IMG/VR virus record: IMGVR_UViG_3300027791_000015
Coordinates: 1 to 64,000 of that record
Direction: 5' to 3' (one strand)
Length of the DNA: 64,000 nt
Source of the DNA: a virus
Shown: positions 1,716 through 46,809 of the stretch, one piece after another
Layout of the letters: the number at the start of each line of letters is the position of its first letter
How positions within the stretch are numbered: position 1 is the first letter of the stretch
Position numbers and translations under genes: made by a program
The notes under the pieces: generated by a model
The model's database searches: none
What the model saw: the letters and a program-made list of their open reading frames with translations, nothing else
Told to the model about the DNA's origin: nothing

Positions 1716-1716
1716 C

Positions 1717-2925: not shown

Positions 2926-2954
2926 CTCGCCCTGCATAGTGGGGCGGGTTTTTT
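2926..2954 (+). terminator. Rho-independent terminator
   Basis: CTCGCCC (2926-2932) pairs with GGGCGGG (2942-2948) with one T-G wobble, loop of nine bases, followed by six T. It ends the unit that finishes with the gene at 2678. Confidence 0.85.
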
Positions 2955-2955
2955 G

Positions 2956-2984
2956 TTGAAAAATATAAACATTGTTCTTATAAT
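2956..2984 (+). promoter_or_regulatory. Sigma-70-type promoter
   Basis: TTGAAA at 2956-2961, a 17-base spacer, and TATAAT at 2979-2984, a near-perfect housekeeping promoter directly behind the terminator and 29 bases before the ATG of the next gene. It differs from the TTTCWC-N16-TGTAAYA class used by structural genes, so it is probably read by the host polymerase early in infection. Confidence 0.65.
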
Positions 2985-3013
2985 AAAAGAAGATAAGTTT
3001 AAAAACGTTTAAT

Positions 3014-3412: not shown

Positions 3413-3432
3413 TTCAAAAATGTTTAAATTAT

Positions 3433-3461
3433 TATCACAAAACAGTTGATAAACTGTAATA
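3433..3461 (+). promoter_or_regulatory. Phage-class promoter of the SSB gene
   Basis: TATCAC (3433-3438), 16 bases, TGTAATA (3455-3461). Same spacing and nearly the same boxes as the structural-gene promoters. Here the ATG is about 66 bases away, leaving a real 5' leader that contains an inverted repeat. The spacer also holds half of a small inverted repeat (ACAGTT-GATA-AACTGT, 3442-3457) that overlaps the -10 box. Confidence 0.6.
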
Positions 3462-3484
3462 TATATAGTACAAATAAATTTAAT

Positions 3485-3504
3485 ATATTCCAATTCTGGA
3501 ATAT
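3485..3504 (+). repeat. Inverted repeat in SSB leader (possible operator)
   Basis: ATATTCCA (3485-3492), four bases, TGGAATAT (3497-3504): a perfect 8-base inverted repeat between the promoter and the SSB start. It has no T-run, so it is not a terminator. An operator or mRNA hairpin for autoregulation is possible. Confidence 0.45.
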
Positions 3505-3527
3505 CTAACACAAAAAAAACATAAATT

Positions 3528-4196: not shown

Positions 4197-4218
4197 ATTA
4201 TCAAGACAATTTAATTTC

Positions 4219-4246
4219 AATCCCGTCAGAAATGGCGGGATTTTTT
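4219..4246 (+). terminator. Rho-independent terminator after ssb
   Basis: AATCCCGTC (4219-4227) pairs with GGCGGGATT (4234-4242) with one wobble, six-base loop, followed by a T run to 4246. Confidence 0.88.
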
Positions 4247-4247
4247 A

Positions 4248-4275
4248 TTGTATTTTCACTCTGTTTTGTTATATT
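4248..4275 (+). promoter_or_regulatory. Possible promoter of the glycosyltransferase gene
   Basis: TTGTAT (4248-4253), 16 bases, TATATT (4270-4275), five bases before the ATG at 4281. It overlaps the end of the terminator T-run. The short distance to ATG mirrors the near-leaderless layout of other genes here. Boxes are intermediate between the sigma-70-type and the phage class. Confidence 0.35.
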
Positions 4276-4280
4276 AGTAT

Positions 4281-6200
4281 ATGTCTAAAAAAATCTTATG
4301 GATTAGCAATGCCCTGTGGCTTAAAACAGGTCTTAGCAGAAACACAAAAGCGCTTTTAAAAGAGTGGTATGGTAAATATGAAATAATTCACTTATGTCAA
4401 GGTACCTTAGAGGGAGATCCTAAGTTAGAAATGTATCCTTGGAAAAGCTTGCCCTCACTTTCTAAAAACCCACAAGAACAACATAGATATAATCAGGACC
4501 CTCATTATGGTAGATTAGCTGCTTACGGCGCAACAAATGTAGAAAGTGCGATAAAGGAACATAAGCCAGATATTGTGTGTATATCTGATGACTTATGGGC
4601 GGCACCCCTAGATTATTACACAAATAAAGAATGGTCTAAAGAAGTTAATTTAATTTCTCACATAACTTTTGATTCTTTGGCCTTACTTCCAGAATCTTTT
4701 GAACTTGCTAAAAACTGTCATATTTATTCTTGGTCACCCTTTGGAGAAAAAGCGTTAAAAGAAGGTTTGTCAAAAAAAGAAGTTGAGACGGATTATAATA
4801 TTGGTACTATTCCAGCGGCAATTGAGGTAGATAAATATGAGCCAATATCTGATACCGAAAAAAGAGATCTGCGCAATAAATTTGGAATTCCTCAAGACGA
4901 CATTTTGATTAATTTTGTTGGCAGGAATCAATTAAGAAAAAAATTCGATACTCTTCTTAAATCTCTGGCCTCCTACAAAAAACAGTATCCAGGAGGCAAA
5001 AGGGTGAGATTAGCAATTCATACTTCTTGGACAGAGGGCTGGCCTTTGGCTAGACTTATTGAAGAAAACGGATTAGAAATGTCAGATGTTTTAACAACTT
5101 ACGTCTGTAATAACTGTAAACAATTTGAAATTAAACCATATAGCGGTGAACAACAAGATTGTAGATTTTGCAACAGTAAAAAATCCCAAGATTCAGCATC
5201 TATAAGTAATGGGGTTAGTGATGACGAAATGAAATATATCTATGGTATTAGTGATTGTGCTCTCAGTGTTTACACTTCTGGAGGTTTTGAATATCATTGT
5301 GCAGAAAGCATGTTAAACGCTTTGCCTTTGGCAACTATAGGTTACTCTTGCGGCTCAACATATTTAGAGTGCCCACAGGTAACAGAAATAAAATACGTAG
5401 AGACATCTGAGTGTAACAGTGGTTTTATCAAGGCTGAACCTTCGGTTCAAGATTGTGTTAAGTTTATACGAAAGATCGAACAGATGGAGAAATCTAAAAG
5501 GAAGAAGATAGGAGAAAAGGGCCGGGAGTGGGCACTTAAAAAGTTTGACTCAAAAGTGGTTGCTAAACAGTGGTCAAATATCTTTGATAGTATGCCAGAA
5601 GTAGATTATTCTAAGATTAAATTTGATAATAATAGAAAACAAAATCCTTCTTTTATACCCGATAGATCTTTAGATAAAGAAATATTTATAAAAAGTCTTT
5701 ACTCTGGGTTTTTAGACACGCAGCACCCAGACAACCAAGGAATGAAGCACTGGATTGATAGGCTATCAAACGGAGAGTCTAAAGAGAGTATTATTTCAAT
5801 CTTCCAACAAATATCCTCCAAAGAAGCTCAAACGAAAGAAACAAATTTTGAAGATTCACTTCTTAACAACGGAAAAGAAGATTTATTCTTTGTAATTAAA
5901 GAATCTCTTGGAGATTGCATTATTTGCTTGTCATTACTTAAATCTTGCCGAAATTCTTATCCAGATCACAATATTAACATAGTTACAGAACCTAAATATT
6001 TTAATGTATTTAAGGGCTGTGCTTTTGTTGATAATATGGTTCCCTTTAATCCCCTACTAGAACAAGAAATGTATGTAATCGGTGCCAGTAAAGAAAAAGG
6101 CTTTGGGGTTTTTGTTATGCCTGCTGTTGGCAGTCAAAAACATCTAAATTACCTAAGCAACAATAGTCCAGAAATGCTGGCCGAACCTAATTTCAAATAA
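4281..6200 (+). CDS. Multidomain glycosyltransferase: GT4 + DUF4214-like + GT9 N-half
   Basis: A 639-residue fusion. Residues 1-460 look like a GT-B glycosyltransferase: N-terminal strand KKILWISNALWLKTGLSR, hinge strand INFVGRNQLRKKFDTLL (~214-230) and donor-site region GGFEYHCAESMLNALPLAT. A Cys4 zinc-ribbon-like insert (CNNC ... CRFC, ~276-298) interrupts the C-terminal domain. Residues ~470-520 (SLYSGFLDTQHPDNQGMKHW) resemble DUF4214, a repeat often attached to surface or glycan enzymes. From ~533 the sequence (FFVIKESLGDCIICLSLLKS) looks like the N-terminal half of a GT9 heptosyltransferase, stopping where the second Rossmann half should begin. That half is encoded by the next gene. Possible functions are decoration of a surface glycan or virion protein. 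Domain calls are by eye. Confidence 0.72.
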   Translation: MSKKILWISNALWLKTGLSRNTKALLKEWYGKYEIIHLCQGTLEGDPKLEMYPWKSLPSLSKNPQEQHRYNQDPHYGRLAAYGATNVESAIKEHKPDIVCISDDLWAAPLDYYTNKEWSKEVNLISHITFDSLALLPESFELAKNCHIYSWSPFGEKALKEGLSKKEVETDYNIGTIPAAIEVDKYEPISDTEKRDLRNKFGIPQDDILINFVGRNQLRKKFDTLLKSLASYKKQYPGGKRVRLAIHTSWTEGWPLARLIEENGLEMSDVLTTYVCNNCKQFEIKPYSGEQQDCRFCNSKKSQDSASISNGVSDDEMKYIYGISDCALSVYTSGGFEYHCAESMLNALPLATIGYSCGSTYLECPQVTEIKYVETSECNSGFIKAEPSVQDCVKFIRKIEQMEKSKRKKIGEKGREWALKKFDSKVVAKQWSNIFDSMPEVDYSKIKFDNNRKQNPSFIPDRSLDKEIFIKSLYSGFLDTQHPDNQGMKHWIDRLSNGESKESIISIFQQISSKEAQTKETNFEDSLLNNGKEDLFFVIKESLGDCIICLSLLKSCRNSYPDHNINIVTEPKYFNVFKGCAFVDNMVPFNPLLEQEMYVIGASKEKGFGVFVMPAVGSQKHLNYLSNNSPEMLAEPNFK

Positions 6201-6228
6201 AACAACATTAATTAAAAAATGAAATATA

Positions 6229-6257
6229 TTTCCCATCTAATTCAAAAAAATATTATA
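6229..6257 (+). promoter_or_regulatory. Possible phage-class promoter before the GT9 gene
   Basis: TTTCCC (6229-6234), 16 bases, TATTATA (6251-6257), then five bases and the ATG at 6263. Spacing is identical to the TTTCWC-N16-TGTAAYA class, but both boxes are degenerate. Confidence 0.4.
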
Positions 6258-6262
6258 CTAGT

Positions 6263-7402
6263 ATGAATCTTTTAGAAAGATATTCACTCTCGACTGGGTT
6301 TAAAATCAACAAGCTAGCTCCAAGTGAAGATTTTTATCCAGTCCCTTCTAAATATATTACAATCCAAACCTCGTCTGGGATGGAAAGTAAAAACTATGAT
6401 TATTATAGCGATGTTCTTGATATCATAGCTCCCAAACTAAAAGAAATGGGCTATGAGATTTTACACATTGGTCTTGATTGTAATGAGTATCCTCACTGCA
6501 TAAATTTGATTAACAAGCTTAACATTAACCAAACATTCTATGTATTGCGAAATTCTAAACTGCATGTTGGAAATGATAGTTTTGCTGTTCATCACGCAGG
6601 ACTATACGATATTCCAACTGTTGCTCTTTACGGTCCAACGACTCCTGTTAATCACGGACCTTACTTTAGAAAAAATGCTAAACTAATTGAATCACACAGA
6701 GATGGTAAAAATCCTTCATTTTTGCCCCAAGAATCACCTAAGACTATTAATTATATAAAACCAGAAGAAGTGATTAATTCTATCTTTAATCACTTGGATA
6801 TAGATCCGATAAAGTCAGAGACTATTTTTATCGGCTCTGCTTATGGAAATCAGGTAATCGAAGTAATCCCCAACGTAGTGGTCAATCCCAATGCTCTTCA
6901 AGGGAAAATGCCAATAATGAGATGCGACTATGAGTATGATGAAAAATTTGTCTGTGAAAATTTGTCAAGATGTAAGTATTCAGTTGTTACTGATAAAGAA
7001 ACTCCTTTAAATTTATATCAACAATTTAAAAATAATATTCATGAAATCAGCTTTAAGGTTGACATGAACTCCGATATAGTATATATTAAGAATTTACGTA
7101 AAATTGGGCTCCCAGTTCGCCTATGGTCAGATGATAAAGAAAATATTAAAGACATTAGATTCAGGTTTTTGGACATTGATATGGTTTATATGAACAAGTA
7201 TGAAGAATGTAGTGTTGAAATTCCAGAAGGAGCTAAATATAAAAGCCATAAATATATTCTTAGTGACGGAAAAGTTTATATAAGCAAGGAAGATTGGAAA
7301 AATGATCGCTCGTTAAAAAATCCAGAAGAAAATATTTTAGAAATTAAAGAAAAAAGTCTTGACTTTCTTAAAGAAATACAGCATTTTAGAATCATATGTT
7401 AA
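6263..7402 (+). CDS. GT9 heptosyltransferase-like C-terminal half
   Basis: A 379-residue protein whose first ~165 residues match the C-terminal (nucleotide-sugar-binding) half of GT9/ADP-heptose:LPS heptosyltransferases: the strand YITIQTSSGMESKNYD, and the signature around residues 101-135 (NDSFAVHHAGLYDIPTVALY then GPTTPVNHGP), equivalent to the 'D.G..HlAaAlg.P.valfGpt.P' motif. The usual N-terminal half is missing here but is present at the end of the preceding gene, in a different frame after a 62-base gap with stops. A GT9 enzyme therefore appears split over two polypeptides. Residues ~175-379 are an unrecognised, Cys-containing domain. The substrate is unknown. Confidence 0.68.
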   Translation: MNLLERYSLSTGFKINKLAPSEDFYPVPSKYITIQTSSGMESKNYDYYSDVLDIIAPKLKEMGYEILHIGLDCNEYPHCINLINKLNINQTFYVLRNSKLHVGNDSFAVHHAGLYDIPTVALYGPTTPVNHGPYFRKNAKLIESHRDGKNPSFLPQESPKTINYIKPEEVINSIFNHLDIDPIKSETIFIGSAYGNQVIEVIPNVVVNPNALQGKMPIMRCDYEYDEKFVCENLSRCKYSVVTDKETPLNLYQQFKNNIHEISFKVDMNSDIVYIKNLRKIGLPVRLWSDDKENIKDIRFRFLDIDMVYMNKYEECSVEIPEGAKYKSHKYILSDGKVYISKEDWKNDRSLKNPEENILEIKEKSLDFLKEIQHFRIIC

Positions 7403-24685: not shown

Positions 24686-27600
24686 ATGGGACAGTATTAT
24701 ACATCAACTGGAAGATATGATCTATCTACTGGAGATATTTTGGATGTAGAAACTAATCTATCCTTAGACGCTTTCGAATTACCAGATTTTTTCCAAAAGG
24801 GCAATAGAGTTTCTAGTAATCTCTTGTACGACCCAGATCTTGATGTTGGCAGTTATTATATTGAGCCGTTTAATAAATTTTATCCTGAGACTGCGAGTAC
24901 TGGAAGTTTAGAATATAGAAAAGCGGAAATCGGCATTAACAGTATATGGAAGACCGATTTTGAAAAAAGTAAAAGAATTCACGACTATTATACTTGGACT
25001 GGTATTCACTTCTCTGGAGAAATTGATGGTCACGCTGTTGTTGAGGTCGCTGGTCTTGTATATTCTGGATATTCAGAAGGGACATTGGCTGGAAAATATT
25101 ATCCTGAAACTGGAGAGACTCCGACATTTTCATCTAAGGGCAAAAGCACAGTAATTGTGAGCCGCACAGACGGTGCAAGTTCTTCTAATTTTGCAAAGAC
25201 CTTTTTTAGTGGCTTAAGAGGTGAGGTTCAAGTAGTTCCTCTAGGTAATTCTTGGCAAAACAATCCGTTTGTAAATTCTGAAACAGAAACTGGAAAAGCA
25301 TATTTAAAGGAAGCTTTATCAACTGCGATTGTTAATGGCAATACCACGGCCCCTAAATTTTACAAATGGATATCAACTATCCTTGATAGAATAGACAGTT
25401 CTAGAGATAGTAAGATTTTTATATTGAGAGATTTTGACACTAGCACTGTTAATTATACGGTAGGCGACAAAGTTGTTTCGGAGCAAGACCTAATAGACCG
25501 CATTAAAGGTTTACAGATTCCCGTATACGATTATTATAATACATCCACAAACACTGATGAATCTTCAAACCCTTTATCAGGTATTACTACATTTTCTTCT
25601 GGTTATTCACCTACAGATAATGCCTATGTAGATCGACCTAATCGAATACCCGACTGGATTAGTGATCAACAGATCGATATGGTTGATGAACCTTCTAACT
25701 CCAAATGGCTATCTCCAGAAAATGTTTTTCAGTTTGATACAAGTTTATATAGTTTTGTTGGAAGTGGAATGACTTCAGGACTAAAAACTGGAGAAATTAC
25801 TGGCGGGGGTATAATTAACGCTACTACTGAACCATTACTATTAAAAACCAACACTTATGGCAATTATTACGAGGATAAATTTAGAGGGCATCTAGATATC
25901 TCAGCAAGTGGCCGCATTTCATTTGAAGATATATTTCAGCAATACTTTCTTGGTGATTATAATAGGCCTGCTGGTAGTTATGGACTTAAGGTTTCTGGAA
26001 CAAATCACAGCAATTCATTAGTAACTGGAGATATGTTATATATTCCATATTCTGGAGAGGATTACATAGAGGGAAAACAAACACAAAGAGCTGTTAATTT
26101 TAATGATTTTTGTGTTTTTGCCCCAGTTAACTTGGACGGATTTGAGACCTCCTTCCTTTCTTCAGTTACTGTAACTGGATCCCCGATAATTTCTGGAGAA
26201 GTTTACTTGGCTTCTGGATTGCTTGATATTGACTCTACCTTAAATACTGGGATAACTGGAGAATTTGATTTCTTTGATATAAATTTTTTAACTGGAGACC
26301 CTAAATATTTTGTTGAGACAGAAGGATCTACAGGCATGTTATCTGGAGAACTTTTTCATACTTATCTATTATCAGATACTGGACAGGTAGATTTCGAAAC
26401 TACACTTACATCTGCGAAAATATTGCCTGTAGATATGCCAGAAGGTATTTTTACTACGAGTATAGATCCATTCTTTAGTAATAGTATCTCTGGAGATCAA
26501 GTAGTATCTGGGATTAAGGAAGAGAGGGTCGAGGATTTATTACCAGACAGTACGAATATATTAAAAACTTCAATAAGAGATAAAGGTACGGGTCGTGCGT
26601 TTATAAGCGGAATTTTTCAGGGAGATATGACTTATACTGGGATTTATTACAAAGATGATGATGCTTTAACTGGATACATAAATCCAGCGCATGATTACCA
26701 TTATAAAATTTCAGATTTAAGTGACTTTAACTTAACTAATTTAACGGGCGATGGTAAGGTTAGAGTTGTAGATAATAATGGGGGCAATGTACAAATTTCT
26801 TCAGACGTGGACATCATATTTTTATTTGATCGGTCTGGCTCTATGGGTGACAACATAAGAAGTTGTTCTGCTGCTATATCTGCATCTCAACTTTTTGATT
26901 TTCGCATAATCAATGCAAGTGTCTATTCATATGACTATTATAGCTCATTGCCCTATTACATTCCCGGTGTACGCTTAGCGTATTCAGATAGTGATATGGT
27001 GGAAACTGAAGGCTCTTATGAAAGATTTCAGGGCGTGTTGAATGATATCACTAATTACATTCAAATTGGCGGTGGTTTTGAGAAACTGTCGGAAGCAATT
27101 TTAGAGTTAGATGCTGCTGGTAGATTTGATGGTTATAACGATAGGAACGTGATTTTGTGTGCATTTACAGACGAAATCGATGCTTCCACTACGTCCCAAA
27201 AATCGCAGGCTTTACAGGTCTTGGGAACCAAGGAGATTCAAACTATTTTTTTTACTACGACTTTTGATCAGTATGGATATGCTCATCCCCTAGAGCCTAT
27301 TTATACCGCCTATTTAGATCAGTTACCAGCCGAATGTAATGCTCAATGGATAAATATGTCTAACGTTAGCGCTGCGAATTTCAGTAATCTTATTAATGAG
27401 GTAGCTACTAGGGGTTTCGCTAATCTTGATATAATTTCAATATTATCTATTGATAACCAAGAGTTAAATGATTATTTGCCTGATTTATTTTTTGCAGATG
27501 CTACTTTGTCGAGACAAGAATATTATGCTCCAGGAGCTATATTTGTTACATCATTAGAATTGACAGGAGACACTATGATAGACAGTGGTGGTGATAATTT

Positions 27601-30600
27601 AGATGATGACTTTGCAATACTCAAAAATGACGAAGTAATTCTCTCTCCCGCTAGAAATATAGGGTGGTATTCAAATCAACCGCCTTATTCAGTGTACGTA
27701 GTGGGCGGTAAAATTACTGCAAATAATGTTGACTATCCAATAACAAATTTAAGTAATAATATGGATACAGTATTCAAAGTTACTGATAGTTGGTACGGAA
27801 GGGGGGAATTTAATGTTTCTTATCAAGATAGAATAGATGAAATTGAAGCTTCTAACGGTCCCGTTGAGTCTTCAAGTTTGGAATTGGTAGTGCTTAGTGA
27901 TAGAGACATAATAAGAGGCTGGAACGCAAAGCCAACACTGAATACTCCCGATCAAGATCTTAACAGCTTATCTGTAGGAATTTTTTCACAGCCATCCATC
28001 CCTGATGGTTTTAATTTATCTACGCAAGGTGGTGGTACATTAGATAATGCCTCTAATAGAGGTTCGCAAAGACTTTCTGAAACTTCCAGAGCTTTTCTTG
28101 ATAACAGTATTCCTGATTGGCCTTACAGTGGTGTACAGACTGGAAACTCATCTCCAAACTATGTTTGGTCATACACTGGTAATATTTTTACTGGTGATAA
28201 ATTAGAGGTGGCAGTGTTTGATGGTTGGGGGTCTACACTTAGACTAATTCCTTGGACTGCCAAACTTACTTGGAGCGACGGCTTTACTAGTTTTGTAAAC
28301 GGGGGATATAAAGAATCTTTTCCTAGTGATTCAGCTAAGATTCGTCAACTTCAAGATACAAGTTTAACACAGACACAATATTATTCGGCAGATGGGGGTG
28401 GTCCTTGGGGAGAATCTTATAAATTTTACGAAGGCGGTAGCGGTATAATTCCTGTAACAAGAAATATTGAACAAAAATTTGTTCAAGATATGGCATATCT
28501 TCAATATGACACTAATGAAGTACCCTTTAACATAGTCCAGGGATTTGGTTTTTCTGTTAAGGACAAAGAAACCATTTCTTCCTCTGATCCAATATTTGTT
28601 GGAGACAATAATAGACCCAGAGCAATATGGCAAGACGTTGGTTTTGTTTGTAATTTAGATCCAATTAAGTTTACTGACACCAACGAGAATGAAGAAGATG
28701 GCGACGACGACGGCAAAGATAACGCTTTTGATCCTTGCATCCCAGATCCGGGTTGCCCCGAAGAAGACAGCGGCGGTGGCGGCGAAGGGCCTGGTGATGG
28801 CGGCGGCGGTGGCGGCGACGGAGAGAGATCAAATATAGTTTCTGGGGTTCTTTATAGTGGATCGATAACTTTCAATAAAATGTCTATTGGTGATTATCTA
28901 GAATTTAGTCCATATAACTTTGATTACTCTGGTGATTATCTAGAAGCTTATGGAACTGGTTTTCCTGATATCCATAATTTAGATAATAGGTTTTTTTATG
29001 ACAGAAGAGGTAATAATATAAGTACATTCAGTAATGCTGTAGAGCTAGCCTATTTACTTAATGGTTTTTATAATAATTTTTCATTAGGCACAAATAAAAG
29101 AGGGGTATGGCAAAAATTTAAAACAGAATTTGACGAATATGCTGGGGATACGGCTGGGGATTTTTATAGCGGCGCATTGTTAGAAGCGACGGCAATTACT
29201 CCTAATTTTTTAACAATAAAGTCCCTAATATTCAGTGATATGGGTGCTTACAAAATCAAGTTTCAAGATGACAATCTCTCAATTGCTAGTCAGTATCAAT
29301 ACTCAATGCCTAGGTCAATAGGTTTTCAAGGAAGTTATGACGGTCTGAGGTGGAAAAACCTATTCTTAAAAGATTTTGATTATACCTCAAGCAGCCATGA
29401 GCTCATAACTGACGGATATGAAATAGAAAAAAAACCTATGGAATTTGGTTTTGGTCCCGAATTAAGAGTTGACAACGAGAGAGACGGGGTGGACTCAATA
29501 ACTGTAACTGCAAATGATCACGTAATTGAATCGGGGGATGGAGTGTTTTTAAATCAAGTAGAATCTATAGGGATAACAATTTCAAGTTTTGGAAACGGCG
29601 TATTTAGTGGGGTTGAGTTTCCCTCAGGGATAGACGTGCAAGATTTTTTCGAAGACACTATTCGATATGAATATAGCGGCAATAATTCTGGTTCTTTACT
29701 TGGTTTTATTAGCGGTTACGAAGTAAGAAATCCTCTAGCGAAGGAAGATGATGAAATTGTGATAGAACCCGTTGAGGTTGTTTACCCCTGTCCAGGCCCT
29801 CTGACTACAATAATAAGAACTCGACAGGTCATTGTTGATAGTGGTATTGATGAGTTTGGTAACTACTTCCAAGTTACTCAAGAAGAAGAGGCGGGTTGTG
29901 AATTTTGCTTTGGCTACAAAAAAGTCGCCTTGCCAATCGGTCACGAGGCTAACGAAGGCTTGTTCCCAGGAGACCCAGACTATGTATTTAGTGGCTATTC
30001 ACTCTGCGATGCGGAGGGACTTCCAGAGTTAGGGGAGGAAGAGGAAGAAGAAGATAAATTTCAAACTATAGCATTTAGTGGATTTTTTACAGGTTTTGAG
30101 GGCGAAGAGATATTTAGTTTAGACCTTTATGATTCAGATGACACATTTTTCCGTGGGACATTTAAAGCTCCCTTGGAACCAGAAGCTATTTTTATAGTTC
30201 CAAATCAAACGGCAACTTATTCGATTAATGAATTGGAATTTTTCTTTGATCTAATCTCTGTTAAAGATCGCGAAGCTTTATTCGAACAAGACGAAAATGG
30301 TAATTCCATAATACCAGTAGGACAAGAATCGAACGATACAAACACCAGTTATAGAACTGGATTCATTTTTGACAACGAAAGAGACTACAGGTACTATAGG
30401 TTTATCTACAGCGGATTTAATATTCCAGATGGAAGCAGTTCAGCCGAAGAAACCTTTGCCCCCCAAAGTGGAGTAGTTGTATTCGACGAAGTTAATTTGT
30501 ATGGACCAACTGATTATGAATTTGCTTTGAGTGGAGCACAGGAAATAACTTTATTTGACTCTATTTATTCTGGAGACTTATTGATTCCAGTCAGTGGGCG

Positions 30601-31906
30601 CATGACTGGTATGCATGTTGGCAGTAGCTTTAGTGGAATACTGCCTGTTAACTCAAATAAAACTGAAACTATTCTCGAAGACTTTTTCTCTGGTACTCAA
30701 CAAATTTATCCTACCCAATTTGTTGGGAACTATCAAGACACCTTAACTGGAATAGGAGAAGCTTCTGGAATTATTACTGGATTATTTTATGATACAGGTA
30801 CTAACAGGTTGTTTAATGAAATATTAATTCAACAAACAGTTACTGGATTTGAAAATGTCGACACTGAGGTTAATCGAATAAACGATATCACAGATATATT
30901 AGGTTTAACTGACGAAGAGGTATTTATAGATTTCACGGGCCCAGCAAGATTCACTGGTATTGGGGCGGTCAATGCACTTCAAACTGGAGTTAAAAGCTTT
31001 ACAATAGTCACTGGTACAGAGACTGGATTCATAAATGATGGAAGCGGTAGCTATGATTTTTATAGATCTGAATCTAGACTTTTCGGAGAAAAAATTCTGC
31101 TTCAAGATAGTGGCAAAATTTTAAATCAAGACTTTGGTAATTTACTTCTAGAATCATTAGATACTAGTCAAGTATTTAGTTCTATTCCTTCTGGATATAT
31201 TAATTCCCAATTAACATTAAATTATAACAATCCGATTACAGGTGATAGAGTGATAATTGATAGCAATGGCTTTGTAAGAAGCACAGGTAATCAGCTTCCA
31301 AATTTATTTAAGGATATAACCGGTTTGTCTAAGGTTATTAATAGTGGTGAATTTGGATTTAGCACATCAATAATTGATAATGACACATTACAAATCTTTA
31401 CAAATACCCTAGGTGAGCTTGGCAACTCAATACGGGCTAGTTCAGACGGAAGTCTTAATAAACCAACGTTTGAAACCGATACCTTTACTGGCGGACAAAA
31501 TTTCTATCAACCATTAATTGGTTACGGGTTGTTTTCTGGCAATGCCTTCGAAACAGTTAATAATACTGGGATTTATGAAGTAGATTACACAGGAGAAATT
31601 ACTGGTATAATTAACATATTTACTGGAAATAAAAATTTCAACGATACATGGAATCTTCATACTGGAAAATTCAATAAAAATTATAATTTTAGATCTAATC
31701 TTCCTGATGGAGTTATAACTTCCATCTATGAAGACGGTTTTCATTCTATGGGTATTTACCCAAGTCAATTTGCTACATTTATTGACTACGTTCCTAGCGA
31801 TTTAGTAGACTATAATAATACGGAAAATGAGCCCGATGTCGCTGAATTAATCATTACTGGAATAAATTTAACTGGATATACAATTCCAATACACGGAGAC
31901 AAATAA
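24686..31906 (+). CDS. Giant virion protein with von Willebrand A (MIDAS) domain
   Basis: A 2406-residue structural protein. Residues ~1-690 are beta-rich with recurring 'SG..TG' turns. A von Willebrand factor A domain occupies roughly 705-920: strand DVDIIFLFDRSGSMGDN gives the metal-ion-dependent adhesion site DxSxS, and NVILCAFTDEID supplies the later Asp. VWFA domains bind protein or glycan ligands through a metal ion. A hinge at about 1365-1380 (GGGGEGPGDGGGGGGDGE) lies between the halves and follows an acidic, Ca-site-like run (NEEDGDDDGKDNAFDPC). The C-terminal third again has TG turns and the 'LLQDSGKILNQDFGNLLLE' tail signature. It probably forms a large tail fibre or side appendage. 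Confidence 0.7.
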   Translation: MGQYYTSTGRYDLSTGDILDVETNLSLDAFELPDFFQKGNRVSSNLLYDPDLDVGSYYIEPFNKFYPETASTGSLEYRKAEIGINSIWKTDFEKSKRIHDYYTWTGIHFSGEIDGHAVVEVAGLVYSGYSEGTLAGKYYPETGETPTFSSKGKSTVIVSRTDGASSSNFAKTFFSGLRGEVQVVPLGNSWQNNPFVNSETETGKAYLKEALSTAIVNGNTTAPKFYKWISTILDRIDSSRDSKIFILRDFDTSTVNYTVGDKVVSEQDLIDRIKGLQIPVYDYYNTSTNTDESSNPLSGITTFSSGYSPTDNAYVDRPNRIPDWISDQQIDMVDEPSNSKWLSPENVFQFDTSLYSFVGSGMTSGLKTGEITGGGIINATTEPLLLKTNTYGNYYEDKFRGHLDISASGRISFEDIFQQYFLGDYNRPAGSYGLKVSGTNHSNSLVTGDMLYIPYSGEDYIEGKQTQRAVNFNDFCVFAPVNLDGFETSFLSSVTVTGSPIISGEVYLASGLLDIDSTLNTGITGEFDFFDINFLTGDPKYFVETEGSTGMLSGELFHTYLLSDTGQVDFETTLTSAKILPVDMPEGIFTTSIDPFFSNSISGDQVVSGIKEERVEDLLPDSTNILKTSIRDKGTGRAFISGIFQGDMTYTGIYYKDDDALTGYINPAHDYHYKISDLSDFNLTNLTGDGKVRVVDNNGGNVQISSDVDIIFLFDRSGSMGDNIRSCSAAISASQLFDFRIINASVYSYDYYSSLPYYIPGVRLAYSDSDMVETEGSYERFQGVLNDITNYIQIGGGFEKLSEAILELDAAGRFDGYNDRNVILCAFTDEIDASTTSQKSQALQVLGTKEIQTIFFTTTFDQYGYAHPLEPIYTAYLDQLPAECNAQWINMSNVSAANFSNLINEVATRGFANLDIISILSIDNQELNDYLPDLFFADATLSRQEYYAPGAIFVTSLELTGDTMIDSGGDNLDDDFAILKNDEVILSPARNIGWYSNQPPYSVYVVGGKITANNVDYPITNLSNNMDTVFKVTDSWYGRGEFNVSYQDRIDEIEASNGPVESSSLELVVLSDRDIIRGWNAKPTLNTPDQDLNSLSVGIFSQPSIPDGFNLSTQGGGTLDNASNRGSQRLSETSRAFLDNSIPDWPYSGVQTGNSSPNYVWSYTGNIFTGDKLEVAVFDGWGSTLRLIPWTAKLTWSDGFTSFVNGGYKESFPSDSAKIRQLQDTSLTQTQYYSADGGGPWGESYKFYEGGSGIIPVTRNIEQKFVQDMAYLQYDTNEVPFNIVQGFGFSVKDKETISSSDPIFVGDNNRPRAIWQDVGFVCNLDPIKFTDTNENEEDGDDDGKDNAFDPCIPDPGCPEEDSGGGGEGPGDGGGGGGDGERSNIVSGVLYSGSITFNKMSIGDYLEFSPYNFDYSGDYLEAYGTGFPDIHNLDNRFFYDRRGNNISTFSNAVELAYLLNGFYNNFSLGTNKRGVWQKFKTEFDEYAGDTAGDFYSGALLEATAITPNFLTIKSLIFSDMGAYKIKFQDDNLSIASQYQYSMPRSIGFQGSYDGLRWKNLFLKDFDYTSSSHELITDGYEIEKKPMEFGFGPELRVDNERDGVDSITVTANDHVIESGDGVFLNQVESIGITISSFGNGVFSGVEFPSGIDVQDFFEDTIRYEYSGNNSGSLLGFISGYEVRNPLAKEDDEIVIEPVEVVYPCPGPLTTIIRTRQVIVDSGIDEFGNYFQVTQEEEAGCEFCFGYKKVALPIGHEANEGLFPGDPDYVFSGYSLCDAEGLPELGEEEEEEDKFQTIAFSGFFTGFEGEEIFSLDLYDSDDTFFRGTFKAPLEPEAIFIVPNQTATYSINELEFFFDLISVKDREALFEQDENGNSIIPVGQESNDTNTSYRTGFIFDNERDYRYYRFIYSGFNIPDGSSSAEETFAPQSGVVVFDEVNLYGPTDYEFALSGAQEITLFDSIYSGDLLIPVSGRMTGMHVGSSFSGILPVNSNKTETILEDFFSGTQQIYPTQFVGNYQDTLTGIGEASGIITGLFYDTGTNRLFNEILIQQTVTGFENVDTEVNRINDITDILGLTDEEVFIDFTGPARFTGIGAVNALQTGVKSFTIVTGTETGFINDGSGSYDFYRSESRLFGEKILLQDSGKILNQDFGNLLLESLDTSQVFSSIPSGYINSQLTLNYNNPITGDRVIIDSNGFVRSTGNQLPNLFKDITGLSKVINSGEFGFSTSIIDNDTLQIFTNTLGELGNSIRASSDGSLNKPTFETDTFTGGQNFYQPLIGYGLFSGNAFETVNNTGIYEVDYTGEITGIINIFTGNKNFNDTWNLHTGKFNKNYNFRSNLPDGVITSIYEDGFHSMGIYPSQFATFIDYVPSDLVDYNNTENEPDVAELIITGINLTGYTIPIHGDK

Positions 31907-31908: not shown

Positions 31909-32814
31909 ATGGCGGGTCGATTTCAAATTATAAAAACTGGTGCATCTACGGTTCGAGTTGCTGAAAACAGTAGTATTCTTACTTCTAAAATAAGGTATCG
32001 ACCTAATGGCTCTGATGTATTTTTGGGCCACGGTGAGGATGGTAGAGATCAAGATTTGAGGATATCTTCTCGAAGTTTTATGACCGAAAAACAAAAAGAG
32101 GCGGAGAAAGCATCTATTGCATTTGCTACATCTTTAGAGATTGTAGTTGAAGAGAGTATTACAGATGTTATACATAGTAAGGATAATGAAGCACAAACTA
32201 GACAAGCCCCATACGAGGCTTTTCATATTAAAGGCTTGGGAATTGATTTTACACCGAAATACGACGATGATGTGCAAAAAAGGGATTTCATATATTTAGA
32301 ATTGGACCTGCACAGAAGCTTAGATGTTCGTTCCGCAGTAATTGTTGTCGGACCTGTTAATGGTAATGGTCCTGGAAAAATTCCCGGAGAAAGAAATGAA
32401 CGCACTGATTTCATCGAAGAAGATAAAGATTTATTAGGTTGGCCCTCCTTTCCTTCGTCCTATCTTTTTAACATGGATCTAAACAAAGATGGCGAGTTAA
32501 TTTACACTCCCACAAATGCAGAGCCCACCAACGAAGAACTTAGGCAGGGTAAATTTCAGAAAAAAGCATACTTGATGATTGGATATTTAACTAAAGATGT
32601 AGTAGGGGGTAGCGAAGGTCTTGTGATTTTTGATGAAGACAATAGCGACGCCCCCTATATGAATGTAGTTGGCTGTTTAAATACTAACTTAGAAATATCT
32701 CATGGGCTTTCTAACGAATTACCTGTTGTCAACCTTTCTCCAAGCCACGATCCCGTACACTTGAGTTCAAATTATTTTGAGGAAGTTGAGCAAGAATCTG
32801 AATCGGGGGAATAA
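31909..32814 (+). CDS. Structural protein of unknown function
   Basis: A 301-residue acidic protein starting two bases after the giant protein. Mixed alpha/beta, no cysteine cluster, and a Ca-loop-like DLNKDGELIY in the middle. The C-terminus is acidic (EVEQESESGE). Position in the plus-strand tail island suggests a virion or appendage component. No family recognised. Confidence 0.55.
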   Translation: MAGRFQIIKTGASTVRVAENSSILTSKIRYRPNGSDVFLGHGEDGRDQDLRISSRSFMTEKQKEAEKASIAFATSLEIVVEESITDVIHSKDNEAQTRQAPYEAFHIKGLGIDFTPKYDDDVQKRDFIYLELDLHRSLDVRSAVIVVGPVNGNGPGKIPGERNERTDFIEEDKDLLGWPSFPSSYLFNMDLNKDGELIYTPTNAEPTNEELRQGKFQKKAYLMIGYLTKDVVGGSEGLVIFDEDNSDAPYMNVVGCLNTNLEISHGLSNELPVVNLSPSHDPVHLSSNYFEEVEQESESGE

Positions 32815-32815: not shown

Positions 32816-33706
32816 ATGCACGAAGAAAATAATATTCCCAATACTCATGACCCAGGTCAACCAGAATACTTCGACGAGATTTCTAAGAAACAAAAGAAAA
32901 GTCAGCCCATTAATTTTGAAAATACAATCTGGCAAACTTTGGACCAAAAACCCAGAATAGGAAATCTATATTTCATGGATAGCTTGCTATTCAGTTCTTG
33001 CAAATTTAAGGCAGAAAAAGAATTGGGATATAGCCAAGAAGAAGAAGCTATTAAAGAGAGAGAAGATAGAATCGTAGAACTTTATGAAGAAGAGGATGGC
33101 GATATAGAAAAGTTTACCCGCTCCAATTATTTGACGGCGACCAAAGAACAGATTCATCAAATTACTTTTAGAGATAGAATGTATAGGATAGAAGTTCAGA
33201 TTATTACTATGGAAATGAAGTTTTTTCAAACTGGCTCTCCTTTTATCGGACCTATACCATATTTCCAGCCGCGAACGTATCGAACCACTGGTCGTAGCTT
33301 CCCAGTATTTACAGAAAGTCACGAAAGAATGGCGGGACAAAGACACTCTGGACGAGTCAATATAGATACTACACGTATTATGAGACAACAAAATGGTACA
33401 TATTTAATCAAAGTGACTGTTGTAGGAAATGGTTTTACTACAAGTGGATTTGGCTTTCCTGTGGGAATAATCCCATTTGCAAGTGACAGTATTCCTATCC
33501 TTTTCATAAATGCAAACCCAAATGAAACACCTTTAGCTGCTTTTGGCAGTATTATACCAGTGAATTACAATAGTGATGGCGAAGCAGTTGAAGACGTTTA
33601 CAACTGGTCACTTTCTGAAGAATTAAAAAAACATAAAGATGGGGATATTCCCCTCAATGAGCTGTCTATGCTAGCTCAAGAAACTTTGGACTCTATCGCA
33701 GAATAA
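32816..33706 (+). CDS. Structural protein of unknown function
   Basis: The open frame extends upstream to 32777, but that part overlaps the end of the preceding gene. The ATG at 32816 (MHEENNIPNTHDPGQ), one base after the previous stop, is the natural start and gives 296 residues. A hydrophilic N-terminal ~30 residues precedes a mixed domain with IVELYEEEDGDIEKF and a glycine-rich beta part (NGTYLIKVTVVGNGFTTSGF). It ends 7 bases from the convergent minus-strand gene, and no terminator is visible in between. Not recognised. Confidence 0.6.
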   Translation: MHEENNIPNTHDPGQPEYFDEISKKQKKSQPINFENTIWQTLDQKPRIGNLYFMDSLLFSSCKFKAEKELGYSQEEEAIKEREDRIVELYEEEDGDIEKFTRSNYLTATKEQIHQITFRDRMYRIEVQIITMEMKFFQTGSPFIGPIPYFQPRTYRTTGRSFPVFTESHERMAGQRHSGRVNIDTTRIMRQQNGTYLIKVTVVGNGFTTSGFGFPVGIIPFASDSIPILFINANPNETPLAAFGSIIPVNYNSDGEAVEDVYNWSLSEELKKHKDGDIPLNELSMLAQETLDSIAE

Positions 33707-40587: not shown

Positions 40588-43500
40588 TTATGCAGGTGCT
40601 ACAACGTCACCTCTCAATGAGGCTTCTAAACCCTCCAGCCTTGTTCTCATTGATTCGATCATAGCCTCTGTATTTGCAAAGTTTTCTTCTACTCCATCAA
40701 AAGATAATGTAAAATTATTAAATGTCTCCACCTTACTTTCTACACCTTCGTTTAGAGTGGTAATGAATGTGGCAATATTTTGATTCAGATCTGCAAGTTG
40801 TTCAACGTTACTGTTTTGCTTGTCTTGTTTAATTTGCTCTAAAAGCTCACTAAATGTAATTTCTTGATTTTCAACAAGTTTTTGTATAACTGCTTCAAGA
40901 TTTCCCCTATCACCTTGCGTCTTATCTGATGATTTAAAATCGTCTATCGCTTTTATTGCTGTACCCATCTCGTCACCAGTTATAGTTTTATCTGACTTCC
41001 CTTGTTCTAAAGACCTTAAAATTTCTGTCAGAAAGTCGGTATTATTTTTTGACTCTGCAAGCGCCGATAACGCTGTATTAGTTTTCTTAAGTTCTTCTAT
41101 TAAGGGATTTGTGGTTTCTTCAGGTGCTGGCTTAGTATCTTTAACAGCACTGTCTGTTCCATACTGATAAGCGTTAGCATCTCCACCTTCGATTAAATTA
41201 GGAAGTCCCATCATTGATCGGAACGCTGCATTATCTGATTTTCCCTGACTCTGTGAGAACATATAATTTTCCCTTGGATCGTCGAGATCGACGCCGACGG
41301 GTGCCATACTTGCTGCGCCATATCCAAGACGTGCGTTATTCTTATTGAAGTCTAATGGCATTCCACTCTTAATATCAAAATCTCCAGATTCCAAGACAGA
41401 TGAGTTAAATATTTGGTCATACATCTCAGTTCCATGATTAAACATTCCTCGTTCGCTATATGCGTTTTTAAAGGGATTGTTGAAAATGGCACTTTGGTCT
41501 ATTTGATGCCTTTCTGTTGTCTCCATGCCACTTTTAGTATGAAAACTCTTAGGTCCATCGTAACGCCCAAGATTGTTATTGTTTTGTATTCTGGAATATT
41601 CTTTGATATATTGGTCTCGTAACCTTGCCTGTTCTTTGTTTTGGGGGACTACCAATCCACTCAAACCAGCATCCCTGTTTACGACATCTTTTCGTTCTGT
41701 AAATGCTTCTCTTACGCTCGATGGAGTACTTGCAATTAAGGCGTCATTAGTTTTGCCCCTGCTGGTTATTTCGTTTGTTAAGACTCCAAATCCAGCAGTT
41801 TCCATTCGTGAGCCATATTGCCCTTCTCCCATGCGTCTAATAGCTTCGTTAGCTCTTCCAGCAACATCATATTTATTGAATTTAAATTGTCCGTTCTCGT
41901 CAACCTCCGTTCCAGTATTTTTTATATTTCTGTCAAATTCAGATAACATACTTGCTTGCGTAAATCTATCTATTTTAAATTTTCCGTCTTCGTCTTTCTC
42001 TTCCAAGGCAGCAACAAAACCCTCTCTAATTTCTCCAGCCTCATTTGTCAATACTTTCTTAACTCCCTTTGTACTTGTATATTCTCCTTGAGCTCTAACT
42101 TTACCAGCGATAGTTGGATCATCTCTGCCCATCACTTCTGACACGCTCATTCCCATTTCAGATCCTTGTTGAGATCTTACGGATTGGTCTGTTCTTAACT
42201 TCCTAAGAATAGCTTCTTGGTTGTTAGAAATGTTTATGTTTTCCCTTCTATCATTCGACGCTATTTTTTCAAGTTCAAGACTCTCGGCAGCTGATAATAC
42301 TAAACTGTTCAGTGTTGTTTCTACACCCTCGGTCCCAGAGAAAATGTTTTTTAGTTCGGTTCTTATATTATTGAGCTCTTCTAGGCTAGAAATTCCTGTT
42401 GCCATTTTCGCTAGAACTGGGGTCAATTTCTCTTCATCAAAACTAGTGCCAGAAGTAACTATAGGGTTTATGAGTTCGTCTATTCCCCCAATGGTGTCGT
42501 CAAAAATTTTATTTTTGTTTGTTCCAGTTAAGACCTCTTCTTCCTTAACTTTTAATGCTTGTATCTTATTAAAATTATCATCCCTTCCTGAGCCTGTTAG
42601 TCCGAATCTGCTACCAGACATTAATAGAGCACTTCTTTCTCTGTTTATTTCGGTTGGGCCAGATAATTGATCCCTGAATGAGCTTGCATTGTTTATACTT
42701 CTTTGTACATTAAAGTTCTCCATTTGCGCCCTACCAAACGCAGCACTATTAATTCCCAACCCTACCCTTGTTCTTGTCATCGACCTTCGGTTTGCCATGT
42801 CTTGGAATCCACCTCCAGATTTAAAACTTTCGCTTATAATATTACCGTATTCGTGTAGTGCATCAGATGATTCTCTAATCGCAGAAGGCAAATCGTCTAT
42901 GTCAATTCCCAAACGCATTAACGCTTTTTGTATCCCGCCAAAACGGCCGGAACTGAGTCCTTCGGATATAGATTTTGAGAATTCACCTATAGAATCACCA
43001 GAATTCTTCATAGCTTGATCCATTGCACTAAAATCAACATTACTTAAATTTATGTTTTTTAGTTCCTTTTTTTGATCTTCGGATATGTCAGAGAAAGGAT
43101 CGTCCTCTACAATAAAACTGTTGCTACTCATTCCCATCTTCGACAGAAGTTTGTCGAAGCCCTCAAGCATAGAAAGACCACTCGCCCCTTGGCCTTGGCC
43201 GTTTCTGGCTAAATTCATTATCATTTTTTCACGATTTCTGCTAAAATCAGTTTGAACAACTCGACTACCCGTTGTATCTTCGAGTATTTTTGTTACGTCA
43301 AGCCTATTTTTAGCCTCAAATGTTTGCGAATTTAACTGTCTCTGCAATTCCACGGCTACATCGCCCCTATCGTTCGAGGTCGCAGATGTCAATTTTTCAA
43401 TTTGTTCGGATGTTAAACCCGACTCTCTTAAAGTTTTGTTTGTTGCGTCTTCTATACCTAATATTTTCTGCTGATCAAGATCTCCAGAAGATATTAAGTC

Positions 43501-46500
43501 CGAAATTAGAGATTGAGACTGTAAAAAAGATTTAATCGCATTGGCGCTGTTTGCATTTGTTTCTTGAAGCTTGTCAAATTGTGCGGCTAATATATCTGAG
43601 GGTGACTCCTTTTTTCCTGCAGATGAAACACCTCCAAGTATAGCGCCTCCTACAGTCCCAGCTATCATTGCAGGCAGTCCAAACAATGATCCAGCGGACA
43701 TGCCCGTCGAAGCTCCTTGCGCCGCGCCTTCGAAAATATTTCCAGTTCTTTTAGCAGCATCTTCATCTTGACCCGCTTTTCCAGCTATGAATTCAGCGCC
43801 ACGACCTATCGTTGGAGCAGACATACTCAAAACCATACTGCCTAAAAATCCCCTTTGAGCAATTCCTTGGTTTCTTTGGAATCTCCTATTTGAAATATCG
43901 GCTTTTATCATTTTCTTAGCCATAGGTGTCATAGTCTTATCCTGCTCAAAACGTTTTTCTATACCTCTGAAACTCGGCATACCTAATCTCCCTCCTATTC
44001 CTTTACGGCTTTGTTTATCTATTGCTGCTTGAGCTCCCTTAACTTGTTGTTCGGCTATTTGTTGGTCTATTTCAAAAAATCTATTACCAACAGAAGTTTT
44101 AACAGCGGTTCTAACTTGTTGTCTAAGCTTTTTGCCTTCTGGGGTACTATTCAAATCTTTCATGCTCATCCCCCTTCTTCCCATCTGCGTTTTTAACTCT
44201 GATCGATATTCATCATTTAATACCATCGATCTGTCTGCTTGCGAGAACCTAGTATTTGCATTTACTGGAGTTGCGCCTTGGAATCGACTTGTCTGATCTT
44301 GTCTCCTTACGTCTTCTTCTATGTCACGTCGCTGCAGAGCTTTCTCTCTTCGTAGTTCCTGCTCTCTTATCTTTTGCGCTTCAAGTGCTCGCCGTTTCTT
44401 GGCTTCTCTTTCTTGAGCTATACGGTCGGCATTATCAAGACTATCTTGTCTCCTTGCAAACTCACCAAAATTATCGGCTCCAGTTGGAGAACCCCTAGGT
44501 GGTCCAATGAAACTTGAACTTCTAAGGTTTTCAAAAGCTCCTGAAGCTCCTTTATTTATTAGGTTTCTTTTGGTAGCTTCTTTGGCAGTTGGTCTGCCTA
44601 CTGGATTTACTCCCTGAGACCTTTCTTTAAATCTGTTTGTTCTAACAGATCCAATAGTATTATCGGCATAAATACTATTTCCCCCTCTTTTAATAATAGC
44701 ACTAGCCGTAGCGGGTAAAATTTTGTTCTGATTTCTACTTGAAGCCCCTCCTGGATTGGTACCAGCATTCTTTCGTAGCCATTCTTTATCCTTAACGGTC
44801 AAGGGTAACCCGTTTTCTAGTTTGCCTTTTATAGCGATTTCTCTCTTGCTTCCTGCAGCATAATTAAACGTGCTCTTATTCATCATACCGCCCTTCATCA
44901 TTTCTTTATTTAAAACGATGTCCCCAGACTTATTAGGTATGATAAGCTCTTCACTATTTACAACTGCTGGACCTTTTTTTCCTCTGCCATAATTAAATTT
45001 TTCAATAACCCTTGCTTGCGCTTTCGATGTAGCACCTCCTACATTTCTACCAATAGCATTTTGTTCTCTAATAATTGCTTCTGGAATTGTTCCGCCCGCG
45101 TTATTAGACACTCCACGATTAAGCGCGATAGCCTTGGTTGAACGCTTTATATTATATCCTCCAGCGCTACCTGATATAATTAATCCCCTCTTTCTTAAGT
45201 GTTCTGAAAATCTAACTTCGGATCTTTCTTGAGCTTTTTGAATGGCAAGTTGTCTTTCTAAAATACCAAGAATAACTTGTTCTTTTTGTGCTTGCGAAGT
45301 AGCTAAAGCAAACTGCTTTTTCTCTTCTTCCGTACCTTGTTTTAATAAAGCTACAGTAGCGGTTTGAGTTTGTTCTCTATTTTTTTGTCCTTTGTTAAGT
45401 CCAGTTAATGAAAGTAGAGAAGCACCGCCTTGAACCAATGTGTTAGCAAATAGATTTTTAACAACTGCAGCAGCAGCAACAAGTCCAGGTCCACTTAAAA
45501 CCTTCGCGAAGCCTTCTGCGGCATCACGTAAAAAGCCGAAATTCTTGGCTCCTATAATAGCATCATTTAAAAGACCAATGAATGCATTAGACGCACCAAG
45601 TTTGTTTCCTTGAAAAGCTTCTAAAATAGAATTTATGTTCCCAACAAGATCTTTAATTGCGTCACCAGTCCCCAATGCTCCAACGCTGTTAAAAATTTTT
45701 CCAATATTGGAATTAATTTGTTTGCTTATTCCCCCAATAGTTTGGTTATACTCTTCGTTTGCCTTATTAGCTTCATTGGTAGCCTCACCTGATTTTAAAG
45801 CTGCACTATCAGCGACACTATACGCACTAGACAAATCTTGAAATGCGGAGATTAACTTAGAAATTTGAAACCCGCCAGCAGCCACTTGACCAATTTGAGC
45901 AGCTAAAGATTGATTACCTGCATCTTGAGCCGCTTTATAAGCAATTGAGACTTGACGCAATTTTTCCATTCCGCTTGAGTTATCATCAATTGCAACTTTT
46001 AAGTCTTTTAATTCTGCTATACGATTCGGTAAGCTCAGTCTAGTAAAAGCAGTCTTAAGGCCTTGACCCAAGGTTGCGCCACCAAGACCAGTTCTCTGCT
46101 TCATGGCCGTAATAACACCCAGTAACTCATTAAATGAAACTCCAGCACCCTGAGCTACAGCAGCAGAACGAGCCAGCGCAGCTGCTAAATCATCCGAAGA
46201 AACGGCGAAAGATGTTTCAACAGCACGAAGTTTGTTGATAACTTCAGTTGACGTCAGAGCTTCTTTCGCGAAGCCATTCAGGGTTGCCGTAATTGCGGCA
46301 ACTGCTTCGTTAGTTTTTAAAGTTGTTAATCGGACCAGAATTAGGGAATCTTCAGTACGTTTCAATGTTTCTCCCACCGCCAAACCCTGACGAGCAAATT
46401 CTTGAGCAGTTTGTGCTACCGTTTGAAAAGATTGTCCAGTTTTTTTCGCAATATCAAATAATTCATTTCCAAACTTTGAAATTGTACCGCTTGATTGACC

Positions 46501-46809
46501 CAAAATACTATTAATAGCTGTAAGCTGCGATTCAACCTCTACGATTGTACTTACTAGCTTTGTGAAAGATCTTCTTACTCCCTCAATAACTGCAACAGAC
46601 GCTCCGAACGCAATAACACGGGCATTAGAAGCTTCTAGAGACTTAGTAAACTCATCAGCCTTCCCCGTAATACGACCCAAGGCCATCTGACCCTTTTTAG
46701 TGTCTAAATTAACGCCTTTACGTTCGAGTTTGCGGACAGCGGTATTTACGTTCCGATTTAAATTCCGCGTATCCGCTCCTACTATAATGTCTAAGTCGCT
46801 TTGAGCCAT
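40588..46809 (-). CDS. Tail tape measure protein (TP901/PhageMin_Tail type)
   Basis: A 2073-residue protein that sets tail length and is ejected with the DNA. Residues ~40-380 contain the TP901-type core: KKTGQSFQTVAQTAQEFARQ, GLAVGETLKRTEDSLILVRL and TLNGFAKEALTSTEV match the conserved 'A..F.RQG....E..' and 'LNGF' motifs. A 'VVNSEELIIPN' segment lies near 610. An Ala/Gly-rich hydrophobic zipper (EGAAQGASTGMSAGSLFGLP then AMIAGTVGGAILGG, about 1020-1065) could insert into the host membrane. The C-terminal half is helical and polar. By the rule of ~1.5 angstrom per residue the tail would be about 300 nm. It has its own promoter just behind the terminator of the tail-tube gene. Confidence 0.92.
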   Translation of the reverse strand: MAQSDLDIIVGADTRNLNRNVNTAVRKLERKGVNLDTKKGQMALGRITGKADEFTKSLEASNARVIAFGASVAVIEGVRRSFTKLVSTIVEVESQLTAINSILGQSSGTISKFGNELFDIAKKTGQSFQTVAQTAQEFARQGLAVGETLKRTEDSLILVRLTTLKTNEAVAAITATLNGFAKEALTSTEVINKLRAVETSFAVSSDDLAAALARSAAVAQGAGVSFNELLGVITAMKQRTGLGGATLGQGLKTAFTRLSLPNRIAELKDLKVAIDDNSSGMEKLRQVSIAYKAAQDAGNQSLAAQIGQVAAGGFQISKLISAFQDLSSAYSVADSAALKSGEATNEANKANEEYNQTIGGISKQINSNIGKIFNSVGALGTGDAIKDLVGNINSILEAFQGNKLGASNAFIGLLNDAIIGAKNFGFLRDAAEGFAKVLSGPGLVAAAAVVKNLFANTLVQGGASLLSLTGLNKGQKNREQTQTATVALLKQGTEEEKKQFALATSQAQKEQVILGILERQLAIQKAQERSEVRFSEHLRKRGLIISGSAGGYNIKRSTKAIALNRGVSNNAGGTIPEAIIREQNAIGRNVGGATSKAQARVIEKFNYGRGKKGPAVVNSEELIIPNKSGDIVLNKEMMKGGMMNKSTFNYAAGSKREIAIKGKLENGLPLTVKDKEWLRKNAGTNPGGASSRNQNKILPATASAIIKRGGNSIYADNTIGSVRTNRFKERSQGVNPVGRPTAKEATKRNLINKGASGAFENLRSSSFIGPPRGSPTGADNFGEFARRQDSLDNADRIAQEREAKKRRALEAQKIREQELRREKALQRRDIEEDVRRQDQTSRFQGATPVNANTRFSQADRSMVLNDEYRSELKTQMGRRGMSMKDLNSTPEGKKLRQQVRTAVKTSVGNRFFEIDQQIAEQQVKGAQAAIDKQSRKGIGGRLGMPSFRGIEKRFEQDKTMTPMAKKMIKADISNRRFQRNQGIAQRGFLGSMVLSMSAPTIGRGAEFIAGKAGQDEDAAKRTGNIFEGAAQGASTGMSAGSLFGLPAMIAGTVGGAILGGVSSAGKKESPSDILAAQFDKLQETNANSANAIKSFLQSQSLISDLISSGDLDQQKILGIEDATNKTLRESGLTSEQIEKLTSATSNDRGDVAVELQRQLNSQTFEAKNRLDVTKILEDTTGSRVVQTDFSRNREKMIMNLARNGQGQGASGLSMLEGFDKLLSKMGMSSNSFIVEDDPFSDISEDQKKELKNINLSNVDFSAMDQAMKNSGDSIGEFSKSISEGLSSGRFGGIQKALMRLGIDIDDLPSAIRESSDALHEYGNIISESFKSGGGFQDMANRRSMTRTRVGLGINSAAFGRAQMENFNVQRSINNASSFRDQLSGPTEINRERSALLMSGSRFGLTGSGRDDNFNKIQALKVKEEEVLTGTNKNKIFDDTIGGIDELINPIVTSGTSFDEEKLTPVLAKMATGISSLEELNNIRTELKNIFSGTEGVETTLNSLVLSAAESLELEKIASNDRRENINISNNQEAILRKLRTDQSVRSQQGSEMGMSVSEVMGRDDPTIAGKVRAQGEYTSTKGVKKVLTNEAGEIREGFVAALEEKDEDGKFKIDRFTQASMLSEFDRNIKNTGTEVDENGQFKFNKYDVAGRANEAIRRMGEGQYGSRMETAGFGVLTNEITSRGKTNDALIASTPSSVREAFTERKDVVNRDAGLSGLVVPQNKEQARLRDQYIKEYSRIQNNNNLGRYDGPKSFHTKSGMETTERHQIDQSAIFNNPFKNAYSERGMFNHGTEMYDQIFNSSVLESGDFDIKSGMPLDFNKNNARLGYGAASMAPVGVDLDDPRENYMFSQSQGKSDNAAFRSMMGLPNLIEGGDANAYQYGTDSAVKDTKPAPEETTNPLIEELKKTNTALSALAESKNNTDFLTEILRSLEQGKSDKTITGDEMGTAIKAIDDFKSSDKTQGDRGNLEAVIQKLVENQEITFSELLEQIKQDKQNSNVEQLADLNQNIATFITTLNEGVESKVETFNNFTLSFDGVEENFANTEAMIESMRTRLEGLEASLRGDVVAPA

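Follow-up and report, generated by a model that had tools for sequence, protein, structure and literature searches.

We identified a gene encoding a giant protein of a tailed phage in which residues 698–912 are predicted to form a von Willebrand A (VWA) domain with a putative metal ion-dependent adhesion site (MIDAS) of the integrin-beta type. Metal-dependent host attachment is our leading reading and a plausible one: we assign a probability of about 0.52 to the proposal that the protein sits at the tail periphery and uses its VWA domain to bind a host ligand through a divalent metal. Within this proposal, we infer the presence of the protein in virions, the occupancy of the metal site, adhesion itself and the nature of the ligand. 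The window, meaning the whole stretch of DNA that we analyzed, comprises 64,000 nucleotides and corresponds to positions 1–64000 of a 69,907-base IMG/VR record.

The giant gene and its orthologs

24686–31906, plus strand: giant predicted tail-associated protein with a VWA domain, 2,406 aa, with full-length orthologs

The gene is a single intact open reading frame that starts with an ATG at 24686 and whose stop codon ends at 31906, exactly the boundaries of the 2,406-residue frame in the initial annotation. Orthologs align over their full length at 61–62% identity in three further viral contigs: the 141.7-kb contig L003 (62%) and the shorter contigs L005 and L006 (61%), which are nearly identical to each other. 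The conservation counts given below thus compare three distinct sequences (61–62% identical) in a shallow alignment. Scans of the full-length protein against Pfam, PHROGs and NCBIfam returned no match, and sequence searches of the Protein Data Bank (PDB) gave chance matches only. Relatives of the gene were absent from phage isolates and plasmids searched by tblastn and from bacterial and archaeal genomes searched in two scans. As far as the searched collections show, this phage group appears to be rare and uncultivated, and the phage itself has been met solely as environmental DNA.

Predicted fold of residues 698–912

26777–27421, plus strand: VWA domain, residues 698–912 (AlphaFold, Foldseek and sub-threshold Pfam matches in orthologs)

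Structure prediction by AlphaFold, the check that the initial annotation had named for its proposed domain, returned a VWA fold for residues 698–912 (pLDDT of 75.3, pTM of 0.80), with one of the five models reaching a pLDDT of 75 and the remaining four 52–59. The predicted elements follow the classical VWA order, b1-a1-b2-b3-a2-a3-b4-a4-b5-a-b6-a7. A Foldseek search of the PDB with this model agrees with the assignment, yielding 220 matches at E ≤ 1e-3, of which the best 50 are essentially all VWA-fold proteins, a few entries being identified by complex name only (for example, 9c4f_I). The top matches are Plasmodium TRAP (3.4e-8), Ku80 and integrin beta-1 (1e-7), and ANTXR2, inter-alpha-inhibitor and the LapA adhesin are among the further matches listed. 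TM-scores to solved structures are moderate, at about 0.4–0.63.

Sequence profiles point the same way at lower strength. Pfam gave no VWA match in the window's own giant protein; in the orthologs, VWA_2 and VWA are the best matches to the domain, at the same place, with best scores of 16.6 and 14.1 bits against curated cut-offs of 27 and 23.8, respectively, and neither profile matches any other place in the relatives' records. A VWA/MIDAS regular expression (hydrophobic strand, DxSxS, GG..[TE]....A[ILV], hydrophobic strand, [TSA]D) matches the protein once, at residues 710–830, and matches none of 20,000 composition shuffles of it, a result that is indicative only because the expression was composed post hoc. 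The fold prediction and the Pfam matches in orthologs are independent of this expression and are the better tests. We set aside the idea of a chance motif. The sequence profiles alone are weak, and the fold prediction carries the main support for a VWA domain.

Other parts of the giant protein

25121–25573, plus strand: second alpha/beta segment, residues 146–296, possibly degenerate VWA-like (low-confidence model, alignment)
28658–28840, plus strand: Asp/Gly-rich linker, residues 1325–1385, between the VWA-containing and C-terminal halves (composition)

An AlphaFold model of residues 1–1200 has an overall pLDDT of 28.8 and does no more than hint at a further alpha/beta segment; Foldseek with this model ranks VWA domains first, weakly. 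The segment, residues 146–296, follows a VWA-like order of elements, b-a-b-a-a-b-a-b, without a DxSxS motif (pLDDT of about 40–50 here), and we tentatively suggest that it is possibly a degenerate VWA domain.

The linker is 26% Gly and 20% Asp and corresponds to the Gly-rich hinge described earlier. The description of arms with TG turns is likewise a fair one: the protein contains 47 TG and 47 SG dipeptides, or 3.9 per 100 aa, versus 0.4–2.8 per 100 aa in the head and tail-core proteins compared. A similar motif starting with ILLQ occurs near the C terminus of both the giant protein (residues 2137–2158; 29–31 kb) and its 682-aa neighbor (residues 663–682).

Putative metal site

26828–26842, plus strand: MIDAS loop 1, D715-R-S717-G-S719, at the end of strand b1 (model; invariant)
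27080–27082, plus strand: E799, MIDAS loop 2, in a GGxE motif just before helix a3 (invariant; position from the model)
27167–27172, plus strand: T828-D829, MIDAS loop 3, at the end of strand b4, in FTDE (model; invariant)

The motifs DRSGS (residues 715–719) and FTDE (residues 827–830) each occur once in the protein. In the model, whose numbering plus 697 gives the protein residue number, strand b1 ends at D715 and strand b4 ends at T828, directly before D829. Residues D715, S717, S719, E799, T828 and D829 are identical in all three distinct sequences, and the residues beside E799 vary among them (GGGFEK, GGGKEE and EGGKEN). Loop 1 (DRSGSM) is 100% invariant, and the b2–b3 loop is just 20% invariant.

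Where alpha-I domains have the MIDAS Thr, this protein has Glu799. Integrin beta subunits carry a MIDAS Glu instead of Thr, such as E220 of integrin beta3, and the 30-residue spacing between E799 and D829 is close to that of the integrin-beta MIDAS residues. The putative metal ligands are D715, S717, S719, E799 and D829, which in the model would form a MIDAS of the integrin-beta type. The initial annotation had called the site complete-looking; this holds for the presence of DRSGS and FTDE, the placement of the ligands on the expected loops and their invariance, but not for the Thr found in alpha-I domains, whose place Glu799 takes.

The missing Thr also bears on a different account of the site, in which the VWA fold has been kept as a structural leftover with its metal site unused or degenerate. 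The N-terminal alpha/beta segment, which may be a VWA-like domain that has lost its site, would fit such a history. Nevertheless, every ligand, the substituted Glu among them, is invariant amid changing flanking residues, and we regard a defunct site as improbable.

Gene neighborhood and phage group

10428–15413, minus strand: LRR_5 (BspA-type) protein, 1,661 aa
15472–18972, minus strand: LRR_5 (BspA-type) protein, 1,166 aa
22343–24391, minus strand: 682-aa TG/SG-rich neighbor, divergent, 73–74% identical in relatives
31909–32814, plus strand: 301-aa protein, conserved downstream partner gene
32816–33706, plus strand: protein of about 296 aa, third gene of the plus-strand cluster (likely start at 32816; listed TTG start at 32777)
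40588–46809, minus strand: tail tape measure protein, 2,073 aa (Pfam PhageMin_Tail, 9e-17; PHROG tape measure, 6e-32)
57813–61438, plus strand: further LRR_5 (BspA-type) protein

A run of structural-looking genes occupies the minus strand between about 57 kb and 33.7 kb. On the plus strand lie the giant gene and its two followers, flanked on both sides by minus-strand genes, and the gene order 680-aa/giant/300-aa/300-aa/540-aa/550-aa is kept in the relatives. Each of the six records searched contains a tape measure gene, and two of them contain a large terminase match; these genes identify the group as tailed double-stranded DNA phages. From the tape measure and the conserved gene order, we place the giant gene within the tail module, past the tape measure. 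The 1,109-aa minus-strand protein that follows the 682-aa gene looks tail-hub-like by eye. LRR_5 domains account for 20 matches in the window's own record, and each of the six records searched carries LRR_5 genes, whose products are likely adhesins or fibers.

By inspection, the N terminus of the giant protein has no obvious signal peptide, which fits a protein assembled into virions better than an exported one. The designation as a virion protein in the initial annotation has good support from the tail-module position, the conserved gene order and this N terminus, from which we infer presence in the virion itself. The missing signal peptide and the tail-module position also led us to set aside a host-secreted adhesin acquired by the phage.

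The same neighborhood bears on whether the protein acts outside the virion, as a VWA protein of the MoxR/CobT or chaperone kind that assists assembly or works in the infected cell. Reports on VWA proteins from phages and archaeal viruses most often describe a role of this kind (PMC7824862, PMC7911831, PMC8651126). However, no AAA_5 (MoxR/CobS-type) ATPase gene occurs in the 69.9-kb record or near the giant gene in the relatives, whose records are fragments; a single sub-cut-off AAA_5 match, in record G001, lies more than 15 kb from the gene. At 2,406 aa, the protein is also larger than the fold library lists for most viral VWA proteins (about 200–1,400 residues), and it is TG/SG-rich like two neighbors in the tail region. 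The missing ATPase gene, the size and the context together disfavor a cochaperone of the MoxR/CobT kind, and we consider a role outside the virion unlikely.

Several further genes characterize the phage. Positions 388–7402 (plus strand) and L022:9168–9968 hold two PHROG 2170 glycosyltransferases, a heptosyltransferase-like protein and, just outside the window, a sulfotransferase; the phage may, on the strength of these genes, decorate virion or host glycans. A 622-aa protein (53376–55244, minus strand) contains DUF5824 and an N terminus that is prohead-protease-like by eye. A 96-aa stretch of this protein is 58% identical to a portion of what is annotated as the major capsid protein of Roseobacter phages CRP-831/821; the stretch has matches in Salinibacter phage proteins as well. 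A 207-aa protein (L022:11525–12148) has a weak C-terminal PEP-CTERM motif (E of 0.0064, below the cut-off), an odd feature for a phage that may hint at its host.

Proposed function

We propose that the giant protein is a peripheral tail protein, of the baseplate or a fiber, that is probably beta-rich and modular and that would display a VWA domain with an integrin-beta-type MIDAS in its first half. A divalent cation (Mg2+, Mn2+ or Ca2+) would be held atop the central sheet of the VWA domain, with its coordination completed by an acidic residue of the ligand, for which a protein or glycan on the host cell surface is the most likely candidate. The Gly/Asp-rich linker may permit the VWA half to move relative to the C-terminal half.

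Host adhesion is favored by the adhesion molecules among the fold matches (TRAP, integrin beta, ANTXR2 and the LapA adhesin) and by the other likely adhesion genes (LRR_5) nearby. It is also favored by the invariance of the MIDAS residues, the tail-module position and the lack of an AAA_5 ATPase gene near the giant gene, as well as by the precedent of Salicola phage SCTP-2, in which a giant VWA protein is encoded beside a kelch protein. Other observations weaken it. Surfaces that track host receptors are often variable, and the DxSxS loop is fully conserved here. Many VWA domains work inside cells or in assembly rather than in adhesion. The alignment is shallow, one of five models is confident, TM-scores are moderate and the window's own protein has no Pfam match.

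The conservation of the domain bears directly on the main rival, a metal-dependent contact inside the virion, either between subunits or with the 301- and 296-aa partners, that would stabilize the tail periphery. MIDAS loop 1 is fully invariant, the VWA domain is no less conserved than its surroundings, and the two downstream genes always adjoin the giant gene, all of which suit an internal contact. The many adhesion receptors among the fold matches and the other likely adhesin genes in the region speak against it, while being compatible with such a contact, and we judge it the less likely account, although one with an appreciable share of the probability. A host-surface ligand, at close to even odds, is the most likely partner of the VWA domain. 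More tentatively, and with some doubt, we suggest that this uncultivated group of tailed phages may attach to its host by combining LRR adhesins with an integrin-beta-type, metal-dependent VWA domain carried by a giant tail protein.

Receptor binding by phages is usually ascribed to beta-helical spikes, C-type lectin folds or immunoglobulin-like folds, and in the openly licensed literature we found no description of a phage receptor-binding protein with a VWA domain. If host adhesion is the correct reading, it would represent a receptor-binding mechanism undescribed for phages in that literature, in which adsorption depends directly on divalent cations through a defined site on a tail protein. 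The adhesion fold of animals, malaria parasites and bacterial biofilm adhesins would then also be used by tailed phages.

Comparison with known systems

VWA domains are well known in phages, mostly in smaller proteins, as judged from fold-library matches. Viral VWA proteins are usually reported to act as partners of AAA+ ATPases, and the MoxR-associated or CobT-type proteins (ATV ORF892, HCTV-2) share with ours a virus-encoded VWA fold but differ in having an AAA+ ATPase partner, a smaller size and a replication or assembly context (PMC7911831, PMC8651126, PMC7824862).

The integrin beta I-like domain (3vi4) and the TRAP VWA domain (4f1j) resemble the phage domain in overall fold (E of 1e-7 and 3.4e-8, respectively) and in the DxSxS loop, and integrin beta also in the Glu that replaces the MIDAS Thr. 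Identity is only about 15–16%, and the phage protein lacks hybrid, PSI and EGF domains. The vWFA domain of LapA (9no5; Foldseek rank 43), a bacterial biofilm adhesin, is likewise a VWA fold, set within an adhesin that is itself very large and modular; bacteria secrete LapA, whereas the phage protein has no apparent signal peptide and is encoded in a tail module.

The closest parallel in kind that we found comes from Salicola phage SCTP-2, so the VWA domain in a giant phage protein, which had been noted as unusual, is not unique.

MF360958.1, 139271–148561 (L033:14272–23562): SCTP-2 gp141, whose two VWA domains share 95% identity

This 3,096-aa protein (ASV44156.1), annotated as hypothetical, combines WD40-type beta-propellers with two VWA domains. 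It shares with our protein giant size and, following a hydrophobic strand (VDIGISLDRSGSF), an identical DRSGS motif, and its gene neighbors a kelch-repeat gene and a 3,807-aa gene. It differs in its beta-propellers, in having two VWA domains, in retaining the usual Thr (GSSTALYDSI) and in Pfam scores above the cut-off. Similarity between the VWA domains is undetectable outside the motif, with hhalign aligning 31 columns around DRSGS at a probability of 4.6%; given this limit, we do not claim common descent beyond the fold. SCTP-2 nonetheless provides a precedent in a cultured phage for a giant VWA protein, one that has been annotated as hypothetical only.
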